22,701 nucleotides of DNA, taken from contig JAAYAO010000372.1 in the NCBI GenBank assembly GCA_012719335.1, positions 1 through 22,701 on the forward strand. The letters run 5' to 3'. The translations under genes and the position numbers were made by a program. Within the stretch, counting starts at the first letter, position 1, and every line of letters starts with the position of its first letter. The notes under the pieces were generated by a model. That model was not told where the DNA came from. It did no database searches and was given only the letters and a program-made list of their open reading frames with translations. Source of the DNA: Propionibacterium sp. Lineage in GTDB: Bacteria; Actinomycetota; Actinomycetes; Propionibacteriales; Propionibacteriaceae. Of this stretch, positions 11,134-22,701 are shown in pieces.

Positions 11134-11163
11134 ACACTATTCCGGCCGGGCCTCCTGCCCCAA
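11134..11163 (-). promoter_or_regulatory. Probable leaderless promoter of mfd
   Basis: TAGTGT on the minus strand (11139-11134) is a -10 match followed by six bases and the GTG start of mfd, placing transcription start on the first base of the start codon. TTGGGG (11163-11158) lies 18 bp upstream as a possible -35. The first three bases of the -10 are the TAG stop codon of the MMPL gene. This would let mfd be transcribed independently of the transporter. Confidence 0.5.
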
Positions 11164-13437
11164 ACTCCCGGCGGGTTCGGGCACCCGGTGCAGCTTGTTG
11201 GGCCACCACACCTTCGGCCCGACCAGGGTGAACAGGGCCGGGATCACGATGGTGCGCACCACGAAGGTGTCCAGCAGGATGCCCAGGCCCACCACGATGC
11301 CCAACTGGGTCAGCGTGATCAGCGGCAACACACCCAGCACGGCGAAGACCGCCGCCAGCACGATGCCGGCCGAGGTGATCACCCCACCGGTCAGAGCCAC
11401 CGCACGGACGATGCCGCCGCGGGTGCCGTGTTCGGGGGTTTCCTCCCGGGCCCGGATCACCAGGAAGATCGTGTAGTCCACGCCGAGGGCGATCAGGAAC
11501 AGGAAGGCGAACAGCGGAACGGCGGAGTCGAGGGCGGGGAAGCCGAACACCGCGGTGCTCAACCAGGTGCCGGCGCCGAGGGCGGCGAAGGAACTCAACG
11601 TGGTGGCGACGATCAACAGCAGCGGGGCGACCACCGCCCGCAGCAGGATGAACAGCACCGCCAGCACCACCGCCAGAATCATCGGCAGGATCACCAGCAG
11701 GTCGCGCTCGGCCGCGGTGCGGCTGTCGAGTTGCTGCGCGTCGGGGCCACCGACCAGGGCTTCGGCCCCGTCGACCGTGTCCAACTCGGTGCGCAGGTCG
11801 GCGACCGTGTCGAAGGCCTCGTCGGAGGCCGGTTCGGCGTCGAGCACCACCTGCCAGCGCGACCATCCGGTGTCGGATTCGCCGGTGGGTTGGGCCTCGA
11901 TCACGCCGGCGTGATCGGTGAGCACCTCGGTCACCGCGGGGGCGGCGTCGGTGCGGGCGAGCACCACGGTCGGGTTGGACAACCCGGCCGGGAAGTGTTC
12001 GTTGAGGGTTTCGAAGCCGTCGACCGATTCGGCCTCGACCCGGAACTGTTCGGTTTGTTCCAGGCCGACGCGCACCCCGACCAGCCCGAGGCAGAACACC
12101 GCGAGCAGCGGGATGGTGGCCAGCAGCACCAGCAGCGGCCGGGAGGCCACTCCCTTGGCCAGCTTGTACCAGCCACCGGTGGCGCCCTTGTTGCGGTCAC
12201 CGACCCGGGGAATGAATGGCCAGAACAGGCCGCGACCACACAGGGCCAGGGCCGGCGGCAGCACGAACAGGGCGAAGGCCAGGGCGACCAGCAGGCCGAT
12301 CGCGGCACTGATCCCGAGCATCCGGGTGTTCGGCAGGGTGGCCATCAGCAGGGTCAGCAGGGCCAACACCACGGTGACATTGGAGGCCAGGATGGCCGGG
12401 CTGGCGTGTTGGACGGCCCGGGCCAGGGCATCGCGGTGGTTGTCGAACTGGCGCAGTTCCTCGCGGTAGCGCGAGACCAACAGCAGGGCGTAATTGGTGC
12501 CCGCACCGAAGACCAGCACCGAGGTGATGCCGGTGGTGGAGGCGTCCAGCACGAACCCCATCTGCTCCCCCGCCCGGGCGCTGACGATCGCGGCAACCCG
12601 GTCGGCGACACCGATCACCAACAGCGGCACCAGCCACAGGATCGGGGAACGGTAGGTGATCAGCAGCAGGATGGCGACCACCACGGCGGTCGCGCCCAGC
12701 AGCCGGAAGTCGGCGCCGGCGAAGGCATCGGCGATGTCGGCGGCGAAGGCCGGGCCACCGGTGATCTGCAGGGTGAGATCCTCGGGCAGGCCGTCGGCAC
12801 CGGCGGCACGCAGTTCGGTCAGGGTGTCGGCCAGCGGAAATCCACTCAGGTCGGCACTGACCGGAAGCATCGACAGGGCGGCCATGCCATCCGGGGCGGG
12901 GATCACCGCGGGGGGTCCGCCCGGCCCGCCACCGTCCTGGGGCGGGCCACCGGGGCCACCTTCCTCGGGCTGGCCCGGCTGACCGGGCTCCTCGGGTTGA
13001 CCCGGCTGACCCGGCTGACCGGGCTCCTCGGGTTGACCGGGCTGCTCCGGCTGGCCGGTCTCCTCGTCCTCGACCCCACGGTCGACCTCGAGCATCCGCT
13101 CGTGCGCCTCGGCGGCGGCGGCCAGATCCTCCGGGGTCAACTCGCCACCATCGGCTCGGCTGAACACCGCCAACGCAGGGGCCACGCCCGCGTCGGGGAA
13201 CTCGTCCTGCAGATCCATCACCCGGGCGGCCTCGGCCTCGTCGGGCAGGTTGTTCGGGGCCTCGGGCGAGGTTTCGGCACCCCAGGCCATCACCACACCC
13301 GAGATCAGCAGGGCGATCACCAGGAACACCCAGGAGCGCTTACCACTCACCAATCGGCCGAGCCGGGCGAAACCCCCCTCGGAGGCGCCCGATTTCTCAG
13401 TACTGGTGGACTTCTGCTTCGAATCGGCTGTGGCCAT
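11137..13437 (-). CDS. MMPL/RND family transporter with Gln-Pro-Gly repeat insert
   Basis: A 766-residue inner-membrane transporter with two RND halves. TM1 is at about 34-52; the first extracytoplasmic porter domain (53-245) carries a low-complexity insert at 121-178; TM2-6 follow with GTNYALLLVSRYREEL (Asn315), then a second TM1-like helix, a second porter domain and the second TM bundle with GVDYTIFLV (Asp654). MMPL proteins export lipids, siderophores or drugs using the proton gradient; the substrate here is unknown. In well-studied MmpL proteins both halves have Asp-Tyr at this place, so Asn315 may mean only one half relays protons. The start ATG (13435-13437) has no clear ribosome binding site. 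The stop forms part of the mfd -10. It follows the phosphotransferase gene after a likely terminator. Confidence 0.9.
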   Translation of the reverse strand: MATADSKQKSTSTEKSGASEGGFARLGRLVSGKRSWVFLVIALLISGVVMAWGAETSPEAPNNLPDEAEAARVMDLQDEFPDAGVAPALAVFSRADGGELTPEDLAAAAEAHERMLEVDRGVEDEETGQPEQPGQPEEPGQPGQPGQPEEPGQPGQPEEGGPGGPPQDGGGPGGPPAVIPAPDGMAALSMLPVSADLSGFPLADTLTELRAAGADGLPEDLTLQITGGPAFAADIADAFAGADFRLLGATAVVVAILLLITYRSPILWLVPLLVIGVADRVAAIVSARAGEQMGFVLDASTTGITSVLVFGAGTNYALLLVSRYREELRQFDNHRDALARAVQHASPAILASNVTVVLALLTLLMATLPNTRMLGISAAIGLLVALAFALFVLPPALALCGRGLFWPFIPRVGDRNKGATGGWYKLAKGVASRPLLVLLATIPLLAVFCLGLVGVRVGLEQTEQFRVEAESVDGFETLNEHFPAGLSNPTVVLARTDAAPAVTEVLTDHAGVIEAQPTGESDTGWSRWQVVLDAEPASDEAFDTVADLRTELDTVDGAEALVGGPDAQQLDSRTAAERDLLVILPMILAVVLAVLFILLRAVVAPLLLIVATTLSSFAALGAGTWLSTAVFGFPALDSAVPLFAFLFLIALGVDYTIFLVIRAREETPEHGTRGGIVRAVALTGGVITSAGIVLAAVFAVLGVLPLITLTQLGIVVGLGILLDTFVVRTIVIPALFTLVGPKVWWPNKLHRVPEPAGSLGQEARPE
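12964..13059 (-). repeat. Gln-Pro-Gly/Glu-Pro-Gly coding tandem repeat in the MMPL gene
   Basis: Residues 127-158 are built almost only of QPG, QPEEPG and QPEQPG units, with the DNA unit reading ggttgacccggctgacc-like on the plus strand. A further Gly/Pro-rich stretch (to about residue 178) continues it. The frame is kept throughout because all units are multiples of three. The segment lies in the first extracytoplasmic loop. Such repeats change copy number by slippage. Confidence 0.85.
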
Positions 13438-14728: not shown

Positions 14729-15262
14729 TCAGTCGCCCGAGTCGGCCGACGGGGCCGAGGCCGGCGACGGAGCCGAGGCCGGGGAGGGCGCGGAGGCCGG
14801 CGACGGAGCCGAGGCCGGGGACGGAGCCGAGGCCACCGGCGGGGAGACCTTCTTCGGGGCCGGCTTGGCGGCGGGCTTCGGGGCCGACTGGGCCGAGGGG
14901 GCCGAGTAGGCCTTCGGCGCGGGCTTGGCCGCCGGCTTCGGAGCCGGCTTGGCGGCGGGCTTGGGAGCCGACTGGGCCGAAGGAGCCGACTGGGCCTTCG
15001 GCGCGGCGGGCTTCGGGGCCGGCTTCGGCGCCGACTGGGCCGAAGGCGCCGACGGGGTGGCCGGGGCCTGGGTCGGGGTCGGGGTGGGGGTCGGGGTGGC
15101 GGGCGAGGCCACCGACGGGGCGGACGGGGTGCCGTACCAGGCGGTGGTCGGGGCCGCCGGACGGGGAGCGTCATCGGCACCGGCCAGCATCACCCCACCC
15201 AGCGCGGTGATGCCCAGGGCGCCGGTGACGATCCAGGTGGCAGTGGTCTTGCTGATGTTCAT
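14729..15262 (-). CDS. Single-pass membrane or secreted Ala/Pro/Ser/Lys-rich repeat protein
   Basis: A 177-residue protein of unknown function. Residues 1-8 are a short cytoplasmic end with Lys5; 9-28 are hydrophobic (TWIVTGALGITALGGVMLAG), acting as a signal anchor or signal peptide. The rest is low complexity: a Thr-Pro run (56-64), three SAPSAQSAPKPA modules starting at 71, 92 and 120 with PAAKPAPK extensions, and four to five ASAPSP units at 145-172. The ATG (15260-15262) has a strong GGAAGGAA ribosome binding site, which favours it over an upstream ATG. It is divergent from prsW and upstream of the phosphotransferase gene. The composition suggests a flexible, cell-wall-spanning stalk, with Lys-rich modules that could bind teichoic acid, polyphosphate or other anions. 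This is inference; I recognise no named domain. Confidence 0.72.
   Translation of the reverse strand: MNISKTTATWIVTGALGITALGGVMLAGADDAPRPAAPTTAWYGTPSAPSVASPATPTPTPTPTQAPATPSAPSAQSAPKPAPKPAAPKAQSAPSAQSAPKPAAKPAPKPAAKPAPKAYSAPSAQSAPKPAAKPAPKKVSPPVASAPSPASAPSPASAPSPASAPSPASAPSADSGD
14747..14833 (-). repeat. 18-bp tandem repeat coding ASAPSP
   Basis: Four complete ASAPSP units and one partial unit (ASAPS) follow each other at the 3' end of the repeat-protein gene. The DNA units are nearly identical, alternating ggagccgaggccgg-type blocks on the plus strand. Copy number is likely variable between strains. Confidence 0.85.
14849..15052 (-). repeat. Degenerate repeat coding SAPSAQSAPKPA(A/P)KPAP
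   Basis: Three copies of a longer module begin at residues 71, 92 and 120 of the repeat protein. Their spacing differs (21 and 28 residues) because one copy has an extra PAAKPAPK block. All changes keep the frame. The sequence pattern indicates expansion by duplication. Confidence 0.75.
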
Positions 15263-15372
15263 CTCAGTTCCTTCCTCATTGACGACACCAGTCAAGAGGG
15301 CCGACGTGAGACCACGAGGTGAAAACCATGAGACCTCTCTCATTCGGCGTGACTGCGCCTAATCTTGTTGTG
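15263..15372. promoter_or_regulatory. Divergent control region between the repeat-protein gene and prsW
   Basis: On the plus strand TAATCT (15360-15365) is a -10 element eight bases before the GTG at 15373, so prsW mRNA is probably leaderless. A perfect inverted repeat ATGAGA-CCTC-TCTCAT (15328-15343) lies where the -35 of this promoter would be and is a candidate operator. On the minus strand the repeat-protein ribosome binding site lies at about 15269-15278. TTGACT (minus, 15295-15290) is too close to that start to be its -35. Confidence 0.42.
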
Positions 15373-16632
15373 GTGAGTACCGGCGCCCCTCCCCCAGCAC
15401 CCCGGCACGAGTTCTCGGCGGCCACCTTCCGCACCCATCCGGAGCAGACCATGCGCCGGGTCGGTGCCCCCTTGGCGGTGATGGTGGTCGCCGGCCTGCT
15501 GATCGCCGGGCTGCTGGGATTTGCGGTGTTCTCCGGCCCGTTCTGGTTCGCGATCGGGCTGCTGCCGGTGGCGGTGGTGATCTGTGCGGCGTTGTTCGGC
15601 TACCTGTGGTTGGACCGCTGGGAACCCGAACCTCCCCGGTTGTTGATCTTCGCGTTCCTGTGGGGCGCCGGGATCGCCGCCGGGGTGTCGTTCGGACTGA
15701 ACACGGTGACCGCCCTGTACGTCTGGCCGAACGACCTGTGGGCGATGGCGGTGGGCGCACCGCTGTTCGAGGAGCTCACCAAGGGCGCCTTCCTGCTGTT
15801 CATGTTGACCGGGCTGCGGCGTCGGCAGATGACCAGCCTGGTGGATTGTCTGGTCTACGCCGGGATGGTCGGGCTGGGTTTCGCCTGGGTGGAGGACATG
15901 ATCTATTTCGCCCGCTCCGAGTCGGTGGCCACCACCGTCCAGTTGTTCGTGGTGCGCATGCTGATGGCGGTGTTCGCCCACCCGCTGTTCACCTCATTGA
16001 CCGCGATCGGCATCTACCTGTCGCTGCGGCACCGCAACCGGGCGGCCGGGGTGGGCTGGATCGTGGCCGGTTTCGCCGCGGCGATGCTGGCCCACGGGCT
16101 GTGGAACGGCTCCACGGTGGTGATGTACGGGCTGGGATTCCTCGTCCTGTACTTCCTGATTCTGGTGCCGTTGTTCGCCGGCCTGGTGTGGCTGGCGATC
16201 TGGTCGCGGTACAACGAGGGACGGCAGGTGATCACCCAACTGGTGCCGATGGTGCAGGAGGGGTTGGTCGATCATCACGAGGCGCTCTGGCTGGCCACCC
16301 TGCCGCGCCGGCGGGAACGGCGAAAACTCGCCAAGCGGCACGGCGCACCGGGTGACCTGCGCGCCCTGCAACGGTTCAGTGATGCGGTCACCGAGTTGGC
16401 CTTCATCCGCACCCGGCTGGGACGCGGCGAGATCACCCCGCAGCGCGAGGCCGACCACGCCGATCATGTGCAGGCGGTGCGGCACTATCGGGCCGAGGCG
16501 TTGCCGGTGCTGAGCGAACTGCACCGGATCTCCCCGGTCACCGGCAATCCGCCGCCGCCCCCGGCGCCACGGCCGCCGGCCATTCCGCCCGCGCCCGGGC
16601 ACAACGAACCGCCGTCGCCGCGTCCCCGGTGA
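15373..16632 (+). CDS. prsW: PrsW family intramembrane metalloprotease
   Basis: A 419-residue polytopic membrane protein with about eight hydrophobic helices (roughly residues 30-280) and a cytoplasmic, then Pro-rich C-terminal tail. The PrsW motifs are all present: EELTK (Glu133-Lys137), FAWVE (170-174), FAHP (His203) and AHGLWNG (His241). B. subtilis PrsW cleaves the anti-sigma factor RsiW after a first cut; actinobacterial substrates are mostly unknown. The GTG at 15373 is chosen because TAATCT lies eight bases upstream and no Shine-Dalgarno sequence is present; GTG 15370 and ATG 15451 are alternatives. No sigma/anti-sigma pair is nearby, but a single-pass membrane protein gene lies divergently. 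The stop is four bases from the convergent pth stop. Confidence 0.88.
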   Translation: MSTGAPPPAPRHEFSAATFRTHPEQTMRRVGAPLAVMVVAGLLIAGLLGFAVFSGPFWFAIGLLPVAVVICAALFGYLWLDRWEPEPPRLLIFAFLWGAGIAAGVSFGLNTVTALYVWPNDLWAMAVGAPLFEELTKGAFLLFMLTGLRRRQMTSLVDCLVYAGMVGLGFAWVEDMIYFARSESVATTVQLFVVRMLMAVFAHPLFTSLTAIGIYLSLRHRNRAAGVGWIVAGFAAAMLAHGLWNGSTVVMYGLGFLVLYFLILVPLFAGLVWLAIWSRYNEGRQVITQLVPMVQEGLVDHHEALWLATLPRRRERRKLAKRHGAPGDLRALQRFSDAVTELAFIRTRLGRGEITPQREADHADHVQAVRHYRAEALPVLSELHRISPVTGNPPPPPAPRPPAIPPAPGHNEPPSPRPR

Positions 16633-16636
16633 CGGC

Positions 16637-17230
16637 TCAGGAGTTGAAGGAGTTCTGGGTGGCGGTCAGACCGTGCACGATCAGGCTCTGCACCGCATCG
16701 GCCGCCCGGCCGATGTCGGCACCGAGGTGTTCGCGTTCGGCGCGGGAGAAGTCGTTCAGCACGTAATCGGCCGCGTTCTGTCGGCCCGGCGGGCGGCCGA
16801 TGCCGACCCGAACCCGGTGGAAGTCACCGGTACCCAGGTGTGCCCGGATCGACTTGAGACCGTTGTGCCCGTTGTCGCCCCCGCCCAGTTTGATCCGCAG
16901 CCGGCCCGGGTCGAGGTCGAGTTCGTCGTGGACGACGATCACCCGCTCCGGGGGAATCTTGTGGAACTTCGCCAGGGCCCCGGTCGGGATCCCCGACTCG
17001 TTCATGTAGGTGCGGGTGCGCACCAGGGCGACCGGGACGGTGTCGGCACCCACCGTGCCCACCCCGGCGGATCCGACCCGGGTCTGCACGACCTCGGCCC
17101 GCATCCCCTTCGGGGCGATCGGACGGCCGTCGGCCCGCCGGGCGAGCTCGACGACCACCATGGCACCGACATTGTGCCGGTGTCGGGCGTAGGTCGGGCC
17201 GGGGTTACCCAGCCCGACCACCAACCACAT
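16637..17230 (-). CDS. pth: Peptidyl-tRNA hydrolase
   Basis: A 197-residue cytoplasmic esterase that frees tRNA from prematurely released peptidyl-tRNA. Catalytic and binding residues can be placed: VVGLGNPGPTYARHRHNVG with Asn9 and His19, the substrate-gating YMNESG (Asn77), VVHDELDLDPG (Asp102) and GGGDNGHNGLKSI (Asn123). These match E. coli Asn10, His20, Asn68, Asp93 and Asn114. Length is normal. The ATG (17228-17230) lies 11 bases after the rplY stop, so both are cotranscribed; the ribosome binding site is weak. The order glmU-prs-rplY-pth matches mycobacteria. The 3' end meets prsW tail to tail with a four-base gap and no visible terminator. Confidence 0.96.
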   Translation of the reverse strand: MWLVVGLGNPGPTYARHRHNVGAMVVVELARRADGRPIAPKGMRAEVVQTRVGSAGVGTVGADTVPVALVRTRTYMNESGIPTGALAKFHKIPPERVIVVHDELDLDPGRLRIKLGGGDNGHNGLKSIRAHLGTGDFHRVRVGIGRPPGRQNAADYVLNDFSRAEREHLGADIGRAADAVQSLIVHGLTATQNSFNS

Positions 17231-17241
17231 CGTCGATCAGC

Positions 17242-17862
17242 TCACTCTTCGTCTTCGGCGGCCGGCTCGGCAGCAGCCTTTTCGGTGGCTTCCTCGGCCT
17301 CGTCCTCGTCACCGAGATCCTGCACCACCGGGGCGTTGACGCTCAGCACCATCGCCTCGGGCTCACCGGCCAGGGTGACGTCGGCGGGCAGCTCGACGTC
17401 CTGGGCGAAGATCTGGGCGCCGATCTCCAGGCCCTCGACCGAGACGGTGAGCTCGTCGGGAATGGCGACCGCGGGGGCCTCGACCAGCAGGGCCTGCAGG
17501 TCGACCGAGACCAGGGTGTCGGGGGCCGCTTCACCGGTGACGACCAGCGGCACCTCGACCTGAACCTTCTCGTCGCGACGCACCAGCAGCAGGTCGACGT
17601 GCTCGATGAAGCCGGTGACCGGGTCGCGCTGCACCTGGCGGGGCAGGGCGAGCTGGGACTTGCCGTCGACGTCCATCTCGAGCAGGGCGTTGGCGGTGCG
17701 CAGCGCCAGGAGGGTTTCGTGGCCGTGCAGCGACAGGTGCACCGGGTCGATGCCGTGACCGTAGATCACGGCCGGGATCCGGCCCTCGCGGCGCAGCCGG
17801 CGCGACGCGCCCTTGCCGAATTCGTTGCGGGGCTGGGCGTCCAGCTTGTGGGTGTCAACCAT
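17242..17862 (-). CDS. rplY: 50S ribosomal protein L25/general stress protein Ctc
   Basis: A 206-residue CTC-type L25. The N-terminal 5S rRNA-binding domain (about 1-95) shows NEFGKGASRRLRREGRIPAV and IYGHG, LALRTANALLEMDV and RDPVTGFIEHVDLLLV. The C-terminal TL5-type beta domain (about 96-185) shows VQVEVPLVVTGEAAPDTLVS and SVEGLEIGAQIFAQDVELP. An acidic Glu/Ala tail closes the protein. L25/Ctc binds 5S rRNA in the large subunit, and the long form is stress-linked in some bacteria. The ATG (17860-17862) has GAGGAG nine bases upstream; a longer reading from 17925 has no better support. It is the second gene upstream of the prsW convergence and is followed closely by pth. Its leader is long and structured, listed separately. 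Confidence 0.95.
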   Translation of the reverse strand: MVDTHKLDAQPRNEFGKGASRRLRREGRIPAVIYGHGIDPVHLSLHGHETLLALRTANALLEMDVDGKSQLALPRQVQRDPVTGFIEHVDLLLVRRDEKVQVEVPLVVTGEAAPDTLVSVDLQALLVEAPAVAIPDELTVSVEGLEIGAQIFAQDVELPADVTLAGEPEAMVLSVNAPVVQDLGDEDEAEEATEKAAAEPAAEDEE

Positions 17863-17993
17863 GAGGAGCTCCTCGGGTAGTTCTCGCGTTCGGTTCGTGG
17901 TCGGCGAATCGCGGACCCCGCACACCGTGCGAAAACCCTGTCGATCACGGGCCGCTTCACACGGCCCCTCGCCGAGGCAACCCGCCCATGCTA
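17863..17993 (-). promoter_or_regulatory. rplY-pth promoter and structured 118-nt leader
   Basis: TAGCAT (17993-17988, minus) with TTGGGG 18 bp upstream forms a plausible promoter in the prs-rplY gap, the same -35/spacing as proposed for mfd. Transcription would start near 17981 and leave about 118 nt before the rplY ATG. Two stems lie in it: GGGCCG-TGTGAAG-CGGCCC (17967-17949) and CGCAC-GGT-GTGCG (17931-17919). If the promoter is wrong, the first stem could instead be a terminator of prs, although it lacks a T-run. Confidence 0.4.
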
Positions 17994-18025: not shown

Positions 18026-18109
18026 TCAGGGCTGCCCGTCGAACAGGCTGGTCACCGAACCGTCCTCGAACACCTCGTGGATCGCGGCGGCGATCAGCGG
18101 GGCGATCGA
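18026..18109 (-). pseudogene. prs: Displaced C-terminal codons of prs after a one-base deletion
   Basis: This minus-strand frame, shifted relative to the prs frame, encodes SIAPLIAAAIHEVFEDGS followed by VTSLFDGQP and a TGA at 18026-18028. It is the conserved end of bacterial Prs. Adding one C on the minus strand between 18112 and 18111 would restore LTVLSIAPLI and give a 326-residue protein, the usual actinobacterial length. The tail shows no other damage, which points to a very recent change or a sequence error. Confidence 0.88.
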
Positions 18110-19005
18110 CACACCGTCAGATTGCGGATCTCCACATCGGTGTTGATCGGCAGGGTGTTGGTGACGATGACCTCCTCGAAGGGGGAATCGTTCAGCCGTT
18201 GCGCGGCCGGCCCGGACAACACCGGGTGGGTGGCGGCGGCGATCACGGTCTTCGCGCCGTGCGCCTTCAACGCCTCGGCGGCCTGGCAGATGGTGCCGGC
18301 GGTGTCGATCATGTCGTCGACGAGCAGACAGACCCGGCCCTCGACCTCACCGACCACCTCATGCACCTCGACCTCGTTGGCGACATTGGGGTCGCGGCGC
18401 TTGTGGATGATCGCCAGCGGGGCGTCCAATTTGTCGGTCCACATGTCGGCGACCCGCACCCGTCCGGCGTCCGGCGACACCACGGTGAGGTTGCGGTCCT
18501 TGCCGTATTTCTCGCCGACGTAATCGGTCAGCACCGGCATCGACCACAGGTGGTCGACCGGGCCGTCGAAGAAGCCCTGGATCTGGGCCGCGTGCAGGTC
18601 GACCGACATGATCCGGTCCGCCCCGGCGGTCTTGTACAGGTCGGCGACCAGCCGGGCCGAGACCGGTTCGCGGCCGGCGTGCTTCTTGTCCTGGCGGGCG
18701 TAGGGGTAGAAGGGGGCGACCACGGTGATCCGCTTGGCCGAGGCACGCTTCAGCGCGTCGACCATGATCAACTGCTCCATCAACCATTCGTTCACCGGGG
18801 CGCAGTGCGACTGGATCACGTAGGCGTCACAGCCGCGCACCGACTCCTCGAAGCGCACGTAGATCTCCGAGTTCGCGTAGCTCAGGGCGCGGGTGGGCAC
18901 CAGTTCGGTCTCCATGAGCTCGGCGACCTCTTCGGCCAGTTCGGGATAGGCCCGCCCCGAGAACAACATCAAATGCCGTTCGATGGGGCGCTTGAATCCA
19001 CTCAC
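18094..19005 (-). CDS. prs: Ribose-phosphate diphosphokinase (PRPP synthetase), frameshifted 3' end
   Basis: As it stands this frame gives 303 residues. Prs makes PRPP from ribose 5-phosphate and ATP for nucleotides, His, Trp and cell-wall arabinose donors. Class I features are clear: SGRAYPELAEEVAELM, FPYARQDKKHAGREP-type catalytic loop (here YPYARQDKKHAGREPVSARL), VDLHAAQIQGFF, and the PRPP loop LLVDDMIDTAGTI. After EIRNLTV the reading ends CRSPR and stops at 18094, while the genuine end is present in another frame (18026-18109), so one base is missing near 18111/18112. The GTG start (19003-19005) overlaps the glmU TGA as GTGA and is preceded by GGAAGGA. Prs is normally essential, so a sequence error is the simplest explanation. 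Confidence 0.92.
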   Translation of the reverse strand: MSGFKRPIERHLMLFSGRAYPELAEEVAELMETELVPTRALSYANSEIYVRFEESVRGCDAYVIQSHCAPVNEWLMEQLIMVDALKRASAKRITVVAPFYPYARQDKKHAGREPVSARLVADLYKTAGADRIMSVDLHAAQIQGFFDGPVDHLWSMPVLTDYVGEKYGKDRNLTVVSPDAGRVRVADMWTDKLDAPLAIIHKRRDPNVANEVEVHEVVGEVEGRVCLLVDDMIDTAGTICQAAEALKAHGAKTVIAAATHPVLSGPAAQRLNDSPFEEVIVTNTLPINTDVEIRNLTVCRSPR

Positions 19006-20447
19006 TCCGTGTCCTTCCCAGCAGCCTTCTCGGCGTCCAAGGCGGCCTGTTCGGTGGCGGTGCCGGCACGTCGCCGCGACACCCAACCGGCAACATTACG
19101 CTGCTGCCCCCGGGCCACCGCCAGCTCCCCCGGTGCCACATCGTCGGTGACCGCCGAACCGGCCGCCACATAGGAGCCGTCCGCGATCGTGACCGGTGCC
19201 ACCAGCACCGAGTCGGAGCCGACGAAGGAGTGTTTACCGACCACGGTGCGCGATTTCGAGACCCCGTCGTAGTTGGCGAAGATCGTGCCGGCACCGATGT
19301 TGGCGCCCTCGCCGATCTCGGCGTCGCCGGCGTAGGTGAGGTGCGGCACCTTGGCGCCGTCACCGATCCTGGTGTTCTTGGTTTCCACGAAGGCGCCGAC
19401 CTTGCCCTTGGTGCCCACCACGGTGTTCGGTCGCAGGTACGAGAACGGCCCGACCTGGGCGAAGGGCCCGATCATCGCGAACAGGCAGTGGCTGCGCACC
19501 ACCTCGGCGCCCTCCCCCACCTCGCAGTTCTGCAGGGTGGTGGCCGGCCCGATGGTGGCCCCATCGGCGATCGAGGTGGCCCCGAGCAGTTGGGTGTCGG
19601 GCAGGATCGTCACGTCCTGCCCGAAGTCGACCTCACCGTGGATCCAGGTGGTGGCCGGGTCGATCACGGTCACCCCGTTGCGCATCGCGCGCTCGACATT
19701 GCGGCGGTTCACCTCGGCGTTCATCCGGGCCAACTGGACGCGGTCGTTGACGCCCTCGGTCTGCCACACGTCGTCGATCACGTAGGCCCCGACCCGACCC
19801 CCGGTGCCGCGGGCGTACCCGATCACATCGGTCAGGTAGAGCTCGCCCTGATCGTTGTCGGGCTTCATCTCGGCCAAGCCGGCCCGCAACACCGCGGCGT
19901 CGAAGACGTAGATGCCGGAGTTGATCTCGGTGATCGCCCGTTCGTCGTCGGTGGCGTCGCGGTGTTCGACGATCCGCGCCACATTGCCGTCCTCGCCGCG
20001 CACCACCCGTCCGTACCCGGTGGGGTCGCCCACCTCGGCGGTCAGCACGGTGATCTGGTCGGCGTGCTCGCGGTGGAAGGCGACCAGTTGGGTGATCGTT
20101 TCGCCGGTGAGCATCGGCACGTCGCCGTAGGTCACCACGATCTCGCCGTCCAGATCGGGCAGGTCGGCCAACCCGCATTGGACGGCATGACCGGTGCCGA
20201 GCTGCTCGTCCTGCACCGCGGTACGGCAGTCACCGGCGATCTCATCCAGATGCTCCAACACCTGTTCGCGCTGGTGCCCCACCACCACGACCAGGTGTTC
20301 GGGCTCGGCCGACCGGGCCGCGTCCACGGCGTAGGACAGCATCGAATGCCCACACACCTCGTGCAGCAGCTTCGAGCGCCGCGATTTCATGCGGGTTCCC
20401 CCACCGGCGGCCAGAACAACGACGGCGGCAACAGGCGCCTGGGACAT
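19002..20447 (-). CDS. glmU: Bifunctional UDP-GlcNAc pyrophosphorylase/GlcN-1-P acetyltransferase
   Basis: A 481-residue cytoplasmic enzyme making UDP-GlcNAc for peptidoglycan. The uridyltransferase half (1-230) has LAAGGGTRMKS (usual form LAAGxGTRM), EQLGTGHAV, YGDVPML and EINSGIYVFD. The left-handed beta-helix half (about 255-455) has hexapeptide repeats, GPFSYLRP, VETKN and the acetyltransfer catalytic His369 in VPHLTYAGDAEIG, then GAGTIFANYDG. Both active sites look intact. The C-terminal tail past residue 455 is Ala/Glu-rich. The ATG (20445-20447) has GAGGAG upstream at about nine bases. The stop overlaps the prs GTG start. It is the first gene of the glmU-prs run and is divergent from the metallophosphoesterase gene. 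Confidence 0.96.
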   Translation of the reverse strand: MSQAPVAAVVVLAAGGGTRMKSRRSKLLHEVCGHSMLSYAVDAARSAEPEHLVVVVGHQREQVLEHLDEIAGDCRTAVQDEQLGTGHAVQCGLADLPDLDGEIVVTYGDVPMLTGETITQLVAFHREHADQITVLTAEVGDPTGYGRVVRGEDGNVARIVEHRDATDDERAITEINSGIYVFDAAVLRAGLAEMKPDNDQGELYLTDVIGYARGTGGRVGAYVIDDVWQTEGVNDRVQLARMNAEVNRRNVERAMRNGVTVIDPATTWIHGEVDFGQDVTILPDTQLLGATSIADGATIGPATTLQNCEVGEGAEVVRSHCLFAMIGPFAQVGPFSYLRPNTVVGTKGKVGAFVETKNTRIGDGAKVPHLTYAGDAEIGEGANIGAGTIFANYDGVSKSRTVVGKHSFVGSDSVLVAPVTIADGSYVAAGSAVTDDVAPGELAVARGQQRNVAGWVSRRRAGTATEQAALDAEKAAGKDTE

Positions 20448-20665: not shown

Positions 20666-22701
20666 ATGAAGCGCATGTCGCTCGCGGTGGCGGGTCTGGC
20701 TCTCTCCCTGGTACTGGGCAGCTCCTTCGCTGCCCGGGCCGCCGAACCGGAGCCGGAACCGCTGCTCAGTTTTCCCGTGATTTCCGATGTCCACATCAAC
20801 AGCGGTGACAAGACCGCGAACAACCTGGCCAACGCCATGGTGCAGTTCGAACGTGAGATGCCCCGCCTGGACGTGATCGCCGGGGTCGGCGACCTGGTGC
20901 ACGGTCACCAGTCCGAGATGGAGAAGTACCAGCGGATCATGTCCGAGAGCCCCGCCGCCGGGGTTCCGCAGTTCCTGACCATGGGCAACCACGAGTTCGA
21001 CCAGGGACGGATCGGCGCGGTCGAGCGGTTCAACACCCACATGGGCCAGGACGGCCCGCTGATGCACAAGGTCTACAACGGTTTCCACTTCATCGGCATC
21101 GGGTGGGACATGGGCCCGGTCGAGATCGGGTACCTGAAGCGGGAGCTGGCCGTCGCGGCGGAGGCCGCCCCGGATCAGCCGATCTTCGTGTTCTTCCACT
21201 ACCCGTTGCAGGACACCGTCTACGGCTCGGAGAAGGGTGAGTGGGGTACCGCCAACCCGCTGTTCCACGCCGCCTTGGCCGAGTATCCGCAGGCGATCAC
21301 CTTCTCGGGGCATTCGCACTACCCCGGTGAGAACCCGCGCAATATCTGGCAGGGCGATTTCACCGCACTGAACACCGGCATCGGCCTGAACTACCTGGAG
21401 ATGGAGAAGATGTGGGCCCAGGGCGGGTTCCCGCCCGGCACCGACACCCTCGCCCAGGCGCTGGGCGTCGAGGTGTACTCCGACGAGGTGGTGATCAAGC
21501 GTCGCGACATCACCCGGGACGAATGGTTCGGTGAGGAGTGGGTGATCCCGCTGCCGATCGACAAGGCGAACTTCACCTACACCGACGACCGCGACTCGAT
21601 CGCGCCGGTGTTCCCCGAAACCGCCGCGGTGTCGGTGCAGCGTTCGTCCAGCTCCGCGATCGAGGTGACCTGGGACATCGCCACCGACAACAGCGGCTTC
21701 ATCAACGGCTACTACCTGCGGGCCCGCAACACCGCCACCGGTGCGGTCGATGCCGAACGCAAGATCTCCTCGGAGTACTGGAAGCGTCCGGTGCCGAGCA
21801 GTCACACCTGGGAACTGGCCGGGCTGGCGCCCGGGGTCGACTACGCCATCGAGGTGGTCGCCGTCGACGCCTTCTTCAACGAGAGCGCCCCGCTGAGCAC
21901 CCCCTACACCACCGACAAGCTCGCCATCGCCGACGCGTGGACCGATGAGCAGGCCGTCGAACTGGGGATGACCAGCACCCACCACGTCGTGGTCACCAAC
22001 GCCGACACCGTCGATCGTGAGGTCGAGGTGAGCGTGGACGGCGGCACCGGCGCGACCTTCGCCGAGACCAGCCGCACCATCACCGTACCGGCCGGGGGCC
22101 GGGCTACCGCCGACTTCACCGTGACCGGGGGCAGCGAGCGGACGACCACCACGCTCACCTCCACGGTGACCGGCGACAACGGTGCGCAACTGGGGACGCT
22201 GACCAACCTGCTCTACGTCGGCTACGTCTACGGCGAGTCCTTCGACCGACTGGCGTCCGACCTGGGCCCGGCGGTCGACGAGAACATTTCGGTGCTCGGA
22301 TTCACCCACCAGCCGCCGACGGGCTGGGCCCGCACGCTGGCCGAGGGTATGGCGCAGGGCACCGAGGAGTGGCAGGGCTGGAGCTTCACCACGCTGGAGT
22401 TCTGGGTCGCCGCCGAGGACCAGGGACGTTCCGGCTTCAGCAAGGCCCACAACGTGTTCGCCGTGGCGGACTCCGACGAGTGGGACGACACCGGCTCGCC
22501 GGCCCGGGAATCCACCTTCGACTCCACCCTGAGCACCCCCGACATCCCGGTGACCGCCGGGGAGGCCTACGAGCTGGTCTTCGACAGCCACTACCAGGAC
22601 GAGAGCCCCCAGCGGGCCCAGTTGAGCGCGGTGCACACCGACGCCGAGGGCAATGAGGTGTCGCGGGCGATCATCCTCGACTACGGCCCCGAGGGTGCCG
22701 A
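20666..22701 (+). CDS. Secreted calcineurin-like metallophosphoesterase, C-terminus cut by the window
   Basis: The frame stays open for 678 codons to the last base. Residues 1-25 form a Sec signal peptide (MKRMSLAVAGLALSLVLG, cleavage likely after ARA). The metallophosphoesterase domain (about 35-285) has all metal-site motifs: SDVHIN (Asp41, His43), GDLV (Asp76), GNHE (Asn108, His109), FFHYP (His178) and GHSH (His216, His218). A fibronectin type III-like segment follows (about 312-416: AIEVTWDIATDNSG, LAPGVDYAIEVVAVD), then a beta-rich segment (425-515) and a jelly-roll-like region with FAVADSDEWDDT and LVFDSHYQDES. Such proteins hydrolyse extracellular phosphoesters; the substrate is unknown. 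The ATG has GAAAGG six bases upstream. No cell-wall anchor is seen before the window ends. Confidence 0.85.
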   Translation, partial: MKRMSLAVAGLALSLVLGSSFAARAAEPEPEPLLSFPVISDVHINSGDKTANNLANAMVQFEREMPRLDVIAGVGDLVHGHQSEMEKYQRIMSESPAAGVPQFLTMGNHEFDQGRIGAVERFNTHMGQDGPLMHKVYNGFHFIGIGWDMGPVEIGYLKRELAVAAEAAPDQPIFVFFHYPLQDTVYGSEKGEWGTANPLFHAALAEYPQAITFSGHSHYPGENPRNIWQGDFTALNTGIGLNYLEMEKMWAQGGFPPGTDTLAQALGVEVYSDEVVIKRRDITRDEWFGEEWVIPLPIDKANFTYTDDRDSIAPVFPETAAVSVQRSSSSAIEVTWDIATDNSGFINGYYLRARNTATGAVDAERKISSEYWKRPVPSSHTWELAGLAPGVDYAIEVVAVDAFFNESAPLSTPYTTDKLAIADAWTDEQAVELGMTSTHHVVVTNADTVDREVEVSVDGGTGATFAETSRTITVPAGGRATADFTVTGGSERTTTTLTSTVTGDNGAQLGTLTNLLYVGYVYGESFDRLASDLGPAVDENISVLGFTHQPPTGWARTLAEGMAQGTEEWQGWSFTTLEFWVAAEDQGRSGFSKAHNVFAVADSDEWDDTGSPARESTFDSTLSTPDIPVTAGEAYELVFDSHYQDESPQRAQLSAVHTDAEGNEVSRAIILDYGPEGA

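Follow-up and report, generated by a model that had tools for sequence, protein, structure and literature searches.

Does the prs gene of this bacterium lack a base near its 3' end, or does its assembled sequence lack a base that the cell possesses? The gene, which encodes the PRPP synthetase Prs and is generally essential, lies in the window analysed here, the whole of contig C317 (22701 bases) from the draft genome of a Propionibacteriaceae bacterium. As assembled, it stops in one frame and its conserved C-terminal tail follows in another. The draft comprises 536 contigs and 2.83 Mb, with a completeness of 90.53% and a contamination of 4.18%, and from these figures our guess is that it is a metagenome-assembled genome.

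The prs gene as assembled

The prs body occupies positions 18094-19005 of the minus strand, starting at a GTG codon (19005-19003) that overlaps the stop of the upstream gene (19002-20447, minus strand), which we take from its family to be glmU. By direct reading, the body frame closes with ...EIRNLTVCRSPR at a premature TGA (18096-18094) after 303 residues, and positions 18109-18026 of the same strand encode SIAPLIAAAIHEVFEDGSVTSLFDGQP and a stop, the 27-residue conserved Prs tail, in another frame that is entered by a -1 step. In tblastn searches with the Prs of relatives, the body and tail matches abut near 18112, the tail lying in a second frame. Three relatives gave a tail match that passed the threshold, with identities of 81-82% for the body and 88-92% for the tail; for the other relatives the body match alone was reported, the tail falling below threshold. 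The break is, on the evidence of these alignments, far beyond chance, because the frame in which the tail matches is the only one to continue Prs. No further frame break was found in the prs body when the Prs of relatives was matched against the window.

Against the NCBIfam equivalog profile NF002844.0 (cut-off 438), the body by itself reaches 521 bits over profile positions 5-298 of 326, and so passes the cut-off for a class I PRPP synthetase even without the tail. It also resembles PrsA from M. smegmatis (PDB 5mp7), with which it aligns over residues 10-299 with 403 bits, and a profile built from eight full-length relatives aligns with the same chain over residues 7-324, tail included. The window gene differs from the class I PRPP synthetases of Actinomycetota in that its frame stops before the tail, so that a complete C-terminal tail with the allosteric residues is not present in the same frame.

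Downstream on the minus strand lie rplY, encoding ribosomal protein L25/TL5 (17242-17925), and a presumed pth for peptidyl-tRNA hydrolase, named from its family (16637-17230); no frame break was found in either gene or in glmU. Elsewhere in the window, the minus strand encodes an MMPL-family transporter with a repetitive stretch rich in proline, glycine and glutamine (EEPGQPGQP...; 11137-13437) and a short predicted protein in which Ala-Pro-Lys/Ser repeats are numerous (QSAPKPAAKPAPK...; 14729-15343), and the plus strand encodes an intramembrane protease of the PrsW family (PF13367) with a proline-rich C-terminus (15319-16632). A long predicted exported protein, by eye metallophosphoesterase-like with later domains, is encoded on the plus strand at 20666-22701, its frame still open where the contig ends.

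Relatives and the rest of the draft

The prs genes of relatives were collected at 109 loci, of which 80 were kept from 589 relatives in public genomes and 29 came from further relatives, giving 108 distinct coding sequences; two genomes, G001 and G030, contain prs in fragments only and stand outside this set. As the stop-to-stop length is 333 in the window too and hence not diagnostic, the coding sequences of the relatives were re-read instead. All 109 reach their stop in a single frame at 322-328 residues, and the frame break of the window is common to none of them. When the 3' ends are aligned with MAFFT, the window sequence has a single one-base gap after 18112, at the junction (18112-18111, minus strand) where the body and tail matches meet, and the base is present in 109 of 109 relatives. 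The preliminary description had attributed the break to one base missing between 18112 and 18111 and had anticipated a restored protein of 326 residues; the alignment agrees with the former, and the coordinates and the expected length are borne out by the relatives. Among the genomes available for comparison the genus is represented by this draft alone, and the 109 are more distant relatives: the closest named prs, from Enemella dayhoffiae (Propionibacteriaceae), is 80% identical, and the two nearest relatives by DNA are G003 and G027.

The frequency of comparable breaks in the draft was audited in a sample consisting of the window and 40 contigs taken by number, blind to content except for C327, which was chosen for a prs paralogue described below. 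Reference genes came from G003 and seven other relatives; 24 of the 41 contigs (198,434 bases) were unmasked and reference genes reached 13. At loose settings 66 genes were found on these 13 of 41 contigs (58,046 bases), ten of them in the window, and prs was the sole broken gene; at strict settings it was again the only one, among 52 genes of the draft. Control stretches (14, from seven relatives) gave one broken chain, which looks like an antisense match in L142, among 139 genes under the loose settings, and none among 132 at strict settings. On these counts the assembly can be called neither riddled with errors nor clean: in so small a sample, 65 genes in which no break was detected are compatible with breaks in a few per cent of genes. 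A reference-free scan of codon phase, with a lenient and uncalibrated criterion that missed prs itself (the tail being too short), flagged two of 69 same-strand frame switches, at 16547 in the window and at 2349 in L155. The flag near 16547 falls in the PrsW-family gene and is perhaps compositional.

The tail and the second prs-like gene

The profile of the eight full-length relatives aligns the window tail with Prs chains of solved structure. Residues 308-315 of chain 7xmu_A, which we take to be the Prs chain of E. coli, align with the SVTSLF segment, and tail positions 18, 20 and 23 (Ser, Thr and Phe) are the counterparts of E. coli Ser308, Ser310 and Phe313. In the accessible part of PMC6332680, these three residues are among those of the E. 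coli allosteric site, which lies at the interface of three chains. By this alignment the lost tail carries counterparts of three residues of the ADP/phosphate allosteric site. The preliminary description had assigned the tail to subunit packing; that view is refined rather than replaced, the tail contributing more than packing by the profile alignment and the portion of PMC6332680 just cited. For PrsA from M. smegmatis, the available text of PMC5395218 describes a hexameric enzyme under the control of phosphate and Mg2+, with activation by phosphate and inhibition by ADP. A Prs without its tail would keep the catalytic motifs and lose part of the regulatory site.

The tail sequence was compared codon by codon with six of the 109 tails (24 codons each). 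Against G003, 19 of the 24 codons are identical, three differ synonymously and two nonsynonymously; against G027 the corresponding numbers are 20, two and two; and the other four tails share 13-16 identical codons, with 3-9 synonymous and 1-7 nonsynonymous differences. Nonsynonymous codons outnumber synonymous ones in the comparisons with L084 and L085 and equal them in that with L088, and in all six comparisons the third codon position has more differences than either of the other two. This pattern is suggestive of selection at the protein level until very recently, as far as 24 codons can indicate and with no formal test, and the tail, free of clear decay, still looks coding. A decaying pseudogene was considered as well and set aside: the body holds no other break and the third-position excess recurs in 6 of 6 comparisons, yet nonsynonymous differences exceed synonymous ones in two.

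A second prs had been put forward as one of several explanations, and this proposal survives in part: no spare copy of the same prs was found in the draft, of which about 10% is missing, and the one other match is a full-length paralogue, 37% identical. This gene (L148:3753-4712, on contig C327 of the same genome) encodes 319 residues and keeps the KRR motif, the paired aspartates of the PRPP motif and a tail of its own; it differs at conserved positions, with RSDKK for RQDKK and ALH for DLH. Because of these two replacements its role may be read in three ways, as a PRPP maker, a regulator or a pseudoenzyme. Comparable second matches (36-42% identity) occur in 44 of 56 other genomes, their identity as the same paralogue having been checked for G003 only. 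By eye, the paralogue directly follows an apparent histidine kinase and response regulator and lies near a CarD-like gene (L148:1699-6257), and G003 has the same gene order around it. A search of plasmids at distant sensitivity returned only prs-like matches, with 60-80% identity, in 49 records.

Origin of the missing base

The absence of the base is probably a consensus or assembly error of a fragmented draft. What is observed is a one-base gap that is absent from 109 relatives and a conserved tail left out of frame; that the DNA of the cell has no such gap is what we infer from it. The organism itself would then carry a normal gene for a class I PRPP synthetase of full length between glmU and rplY-pth. 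The uniqueness of the gap to the window speaks for an error, as does a tail that still looks coding and, in the three relatives where both were measured, is more similar to theirs than the body is. The fragmentation, completeness and contamination of the draft point the same way, and so does the general essentiality of Prs, given that a draft lacking about 10% contains no second copy of this gene. According to the available portion of PMC11017572, many of the supposed pseudogenes in assembled bacterial genomes stem from errors of assembly, and in that of PMC3711429 isolated frameshifts validated by BLASTp are expected to be sequencing errors over genuine indels. On the other hand, the longest run between 18130 and 18090 is four bases, so that there is no homopolymer and the commonest signature of indel errors is missing; no other break was found in the 66 audited genes, and the site lies away from the ends of the 22701-base contig, which rules out an edge effect. 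Taken as a whole, the gene resembles the singleton frameshifted genes treated in the GeneTack work (PMC3711429) and in PMC11017572, as far as the accessible text of both goes, being isolated, validated by homology, conserved downstream of the break and found in a draft; it differs from them in that the break lies near the 3' end and outside a homopolymer, which leaves room for a real indel.

Such an indel, a real and very recent one-base deletion carried by this strain or by some members of the population that was sampled, is the strongest alternative, and we regard it as rather unlikely. The cell would live on a 303-residue Prs without its tail, perhaps poorly regulated, or on the diverged paralogue. 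The body on its own exceeds the equivalog cut-off, and the genome does hold a full-length paralogue with KRR, the aspartates of the PRPP motif and a tail, but one altered at conserved positions (RSDKK, ALH). That prs is the only broken gene among those audited fits a genuine event, as does the suggestion, in the available part of PMC3711429, that true indels may make up a relatively larger share of the frameshifts close to 3' ends than of those in other parts of a gene. A shortened Prs, however, is absent from all 109 relatives; the tail is without clear signs of decay and holds the counterparts of Ser308, Ser310 and Phe313, placed at the three-chain interface in the accessible text of PMC6332680. 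More improbable still is a deletion fixed in the lineage, with a Prs that would lack the C-terminal allosteric part or with PRPP that would be supplied by the paralogue, even when frameshifting of an unconventional kind, needing no standard slippery site, is counted alongside it.

Programmed -1 frameshifting would join body and tail into a full-length Prs, as in genes such as dnaX, in which two overlapping frames jointly encode a protein. The stretch 18346-18094 is open in the body frame as well as in the tail frame, and in principle the shift could occur anywhere within it. However, no X XXY YYZ heptamer is present in any frame from 18180 to 18094, confirming that a standard slippery site is missing, and none of the 109 relatives needs a shift; in both respects, an absent heptamer and an unconserved break, prs departs from dnaX-type genes. 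For these reasons programmed frameshifting is very unlikely, and recoding keeps the last place that it held among the options of the preliminary description. A full-text literature search for frameshifting in ribose-phosphate pyrophosphokinase returned nothing relevant, just food-spoilage proteomics. Separate translation of the tail, starting at the overlapping GTG (18112-18110) and complementing the truncated body in trans, is scarcely credible: this codon of the tail frame does coincide with the junction and precedes the premature TGA by 13 bases, but GTG is common in a window with 69% GC, the 28-residue product would need to slot into the hexamer, and no such arrangement was seen in any of the relatives examined. 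Even jointly, recoding and separate translation of the tail are highly improbable.

With a consensus or assembly error as the preferred reading, the locus is probably without biological import; it usefully illustrates how a draft genome can show what looks like a lesion in an essential gene, and it serves as a warning that automatic annotation might call this prs truncated or a pseudogene. Were the deletion real, it would raise the question of whether a PRPP synthetase can dispense with the C-terminal part of its allosteric site; and were it fixed, the organism would possess a PRPP synthetase freed from feedback, or would obtain its PRPP from the paralogue that neighbours the apparent two-component system and the CarD-like gene.
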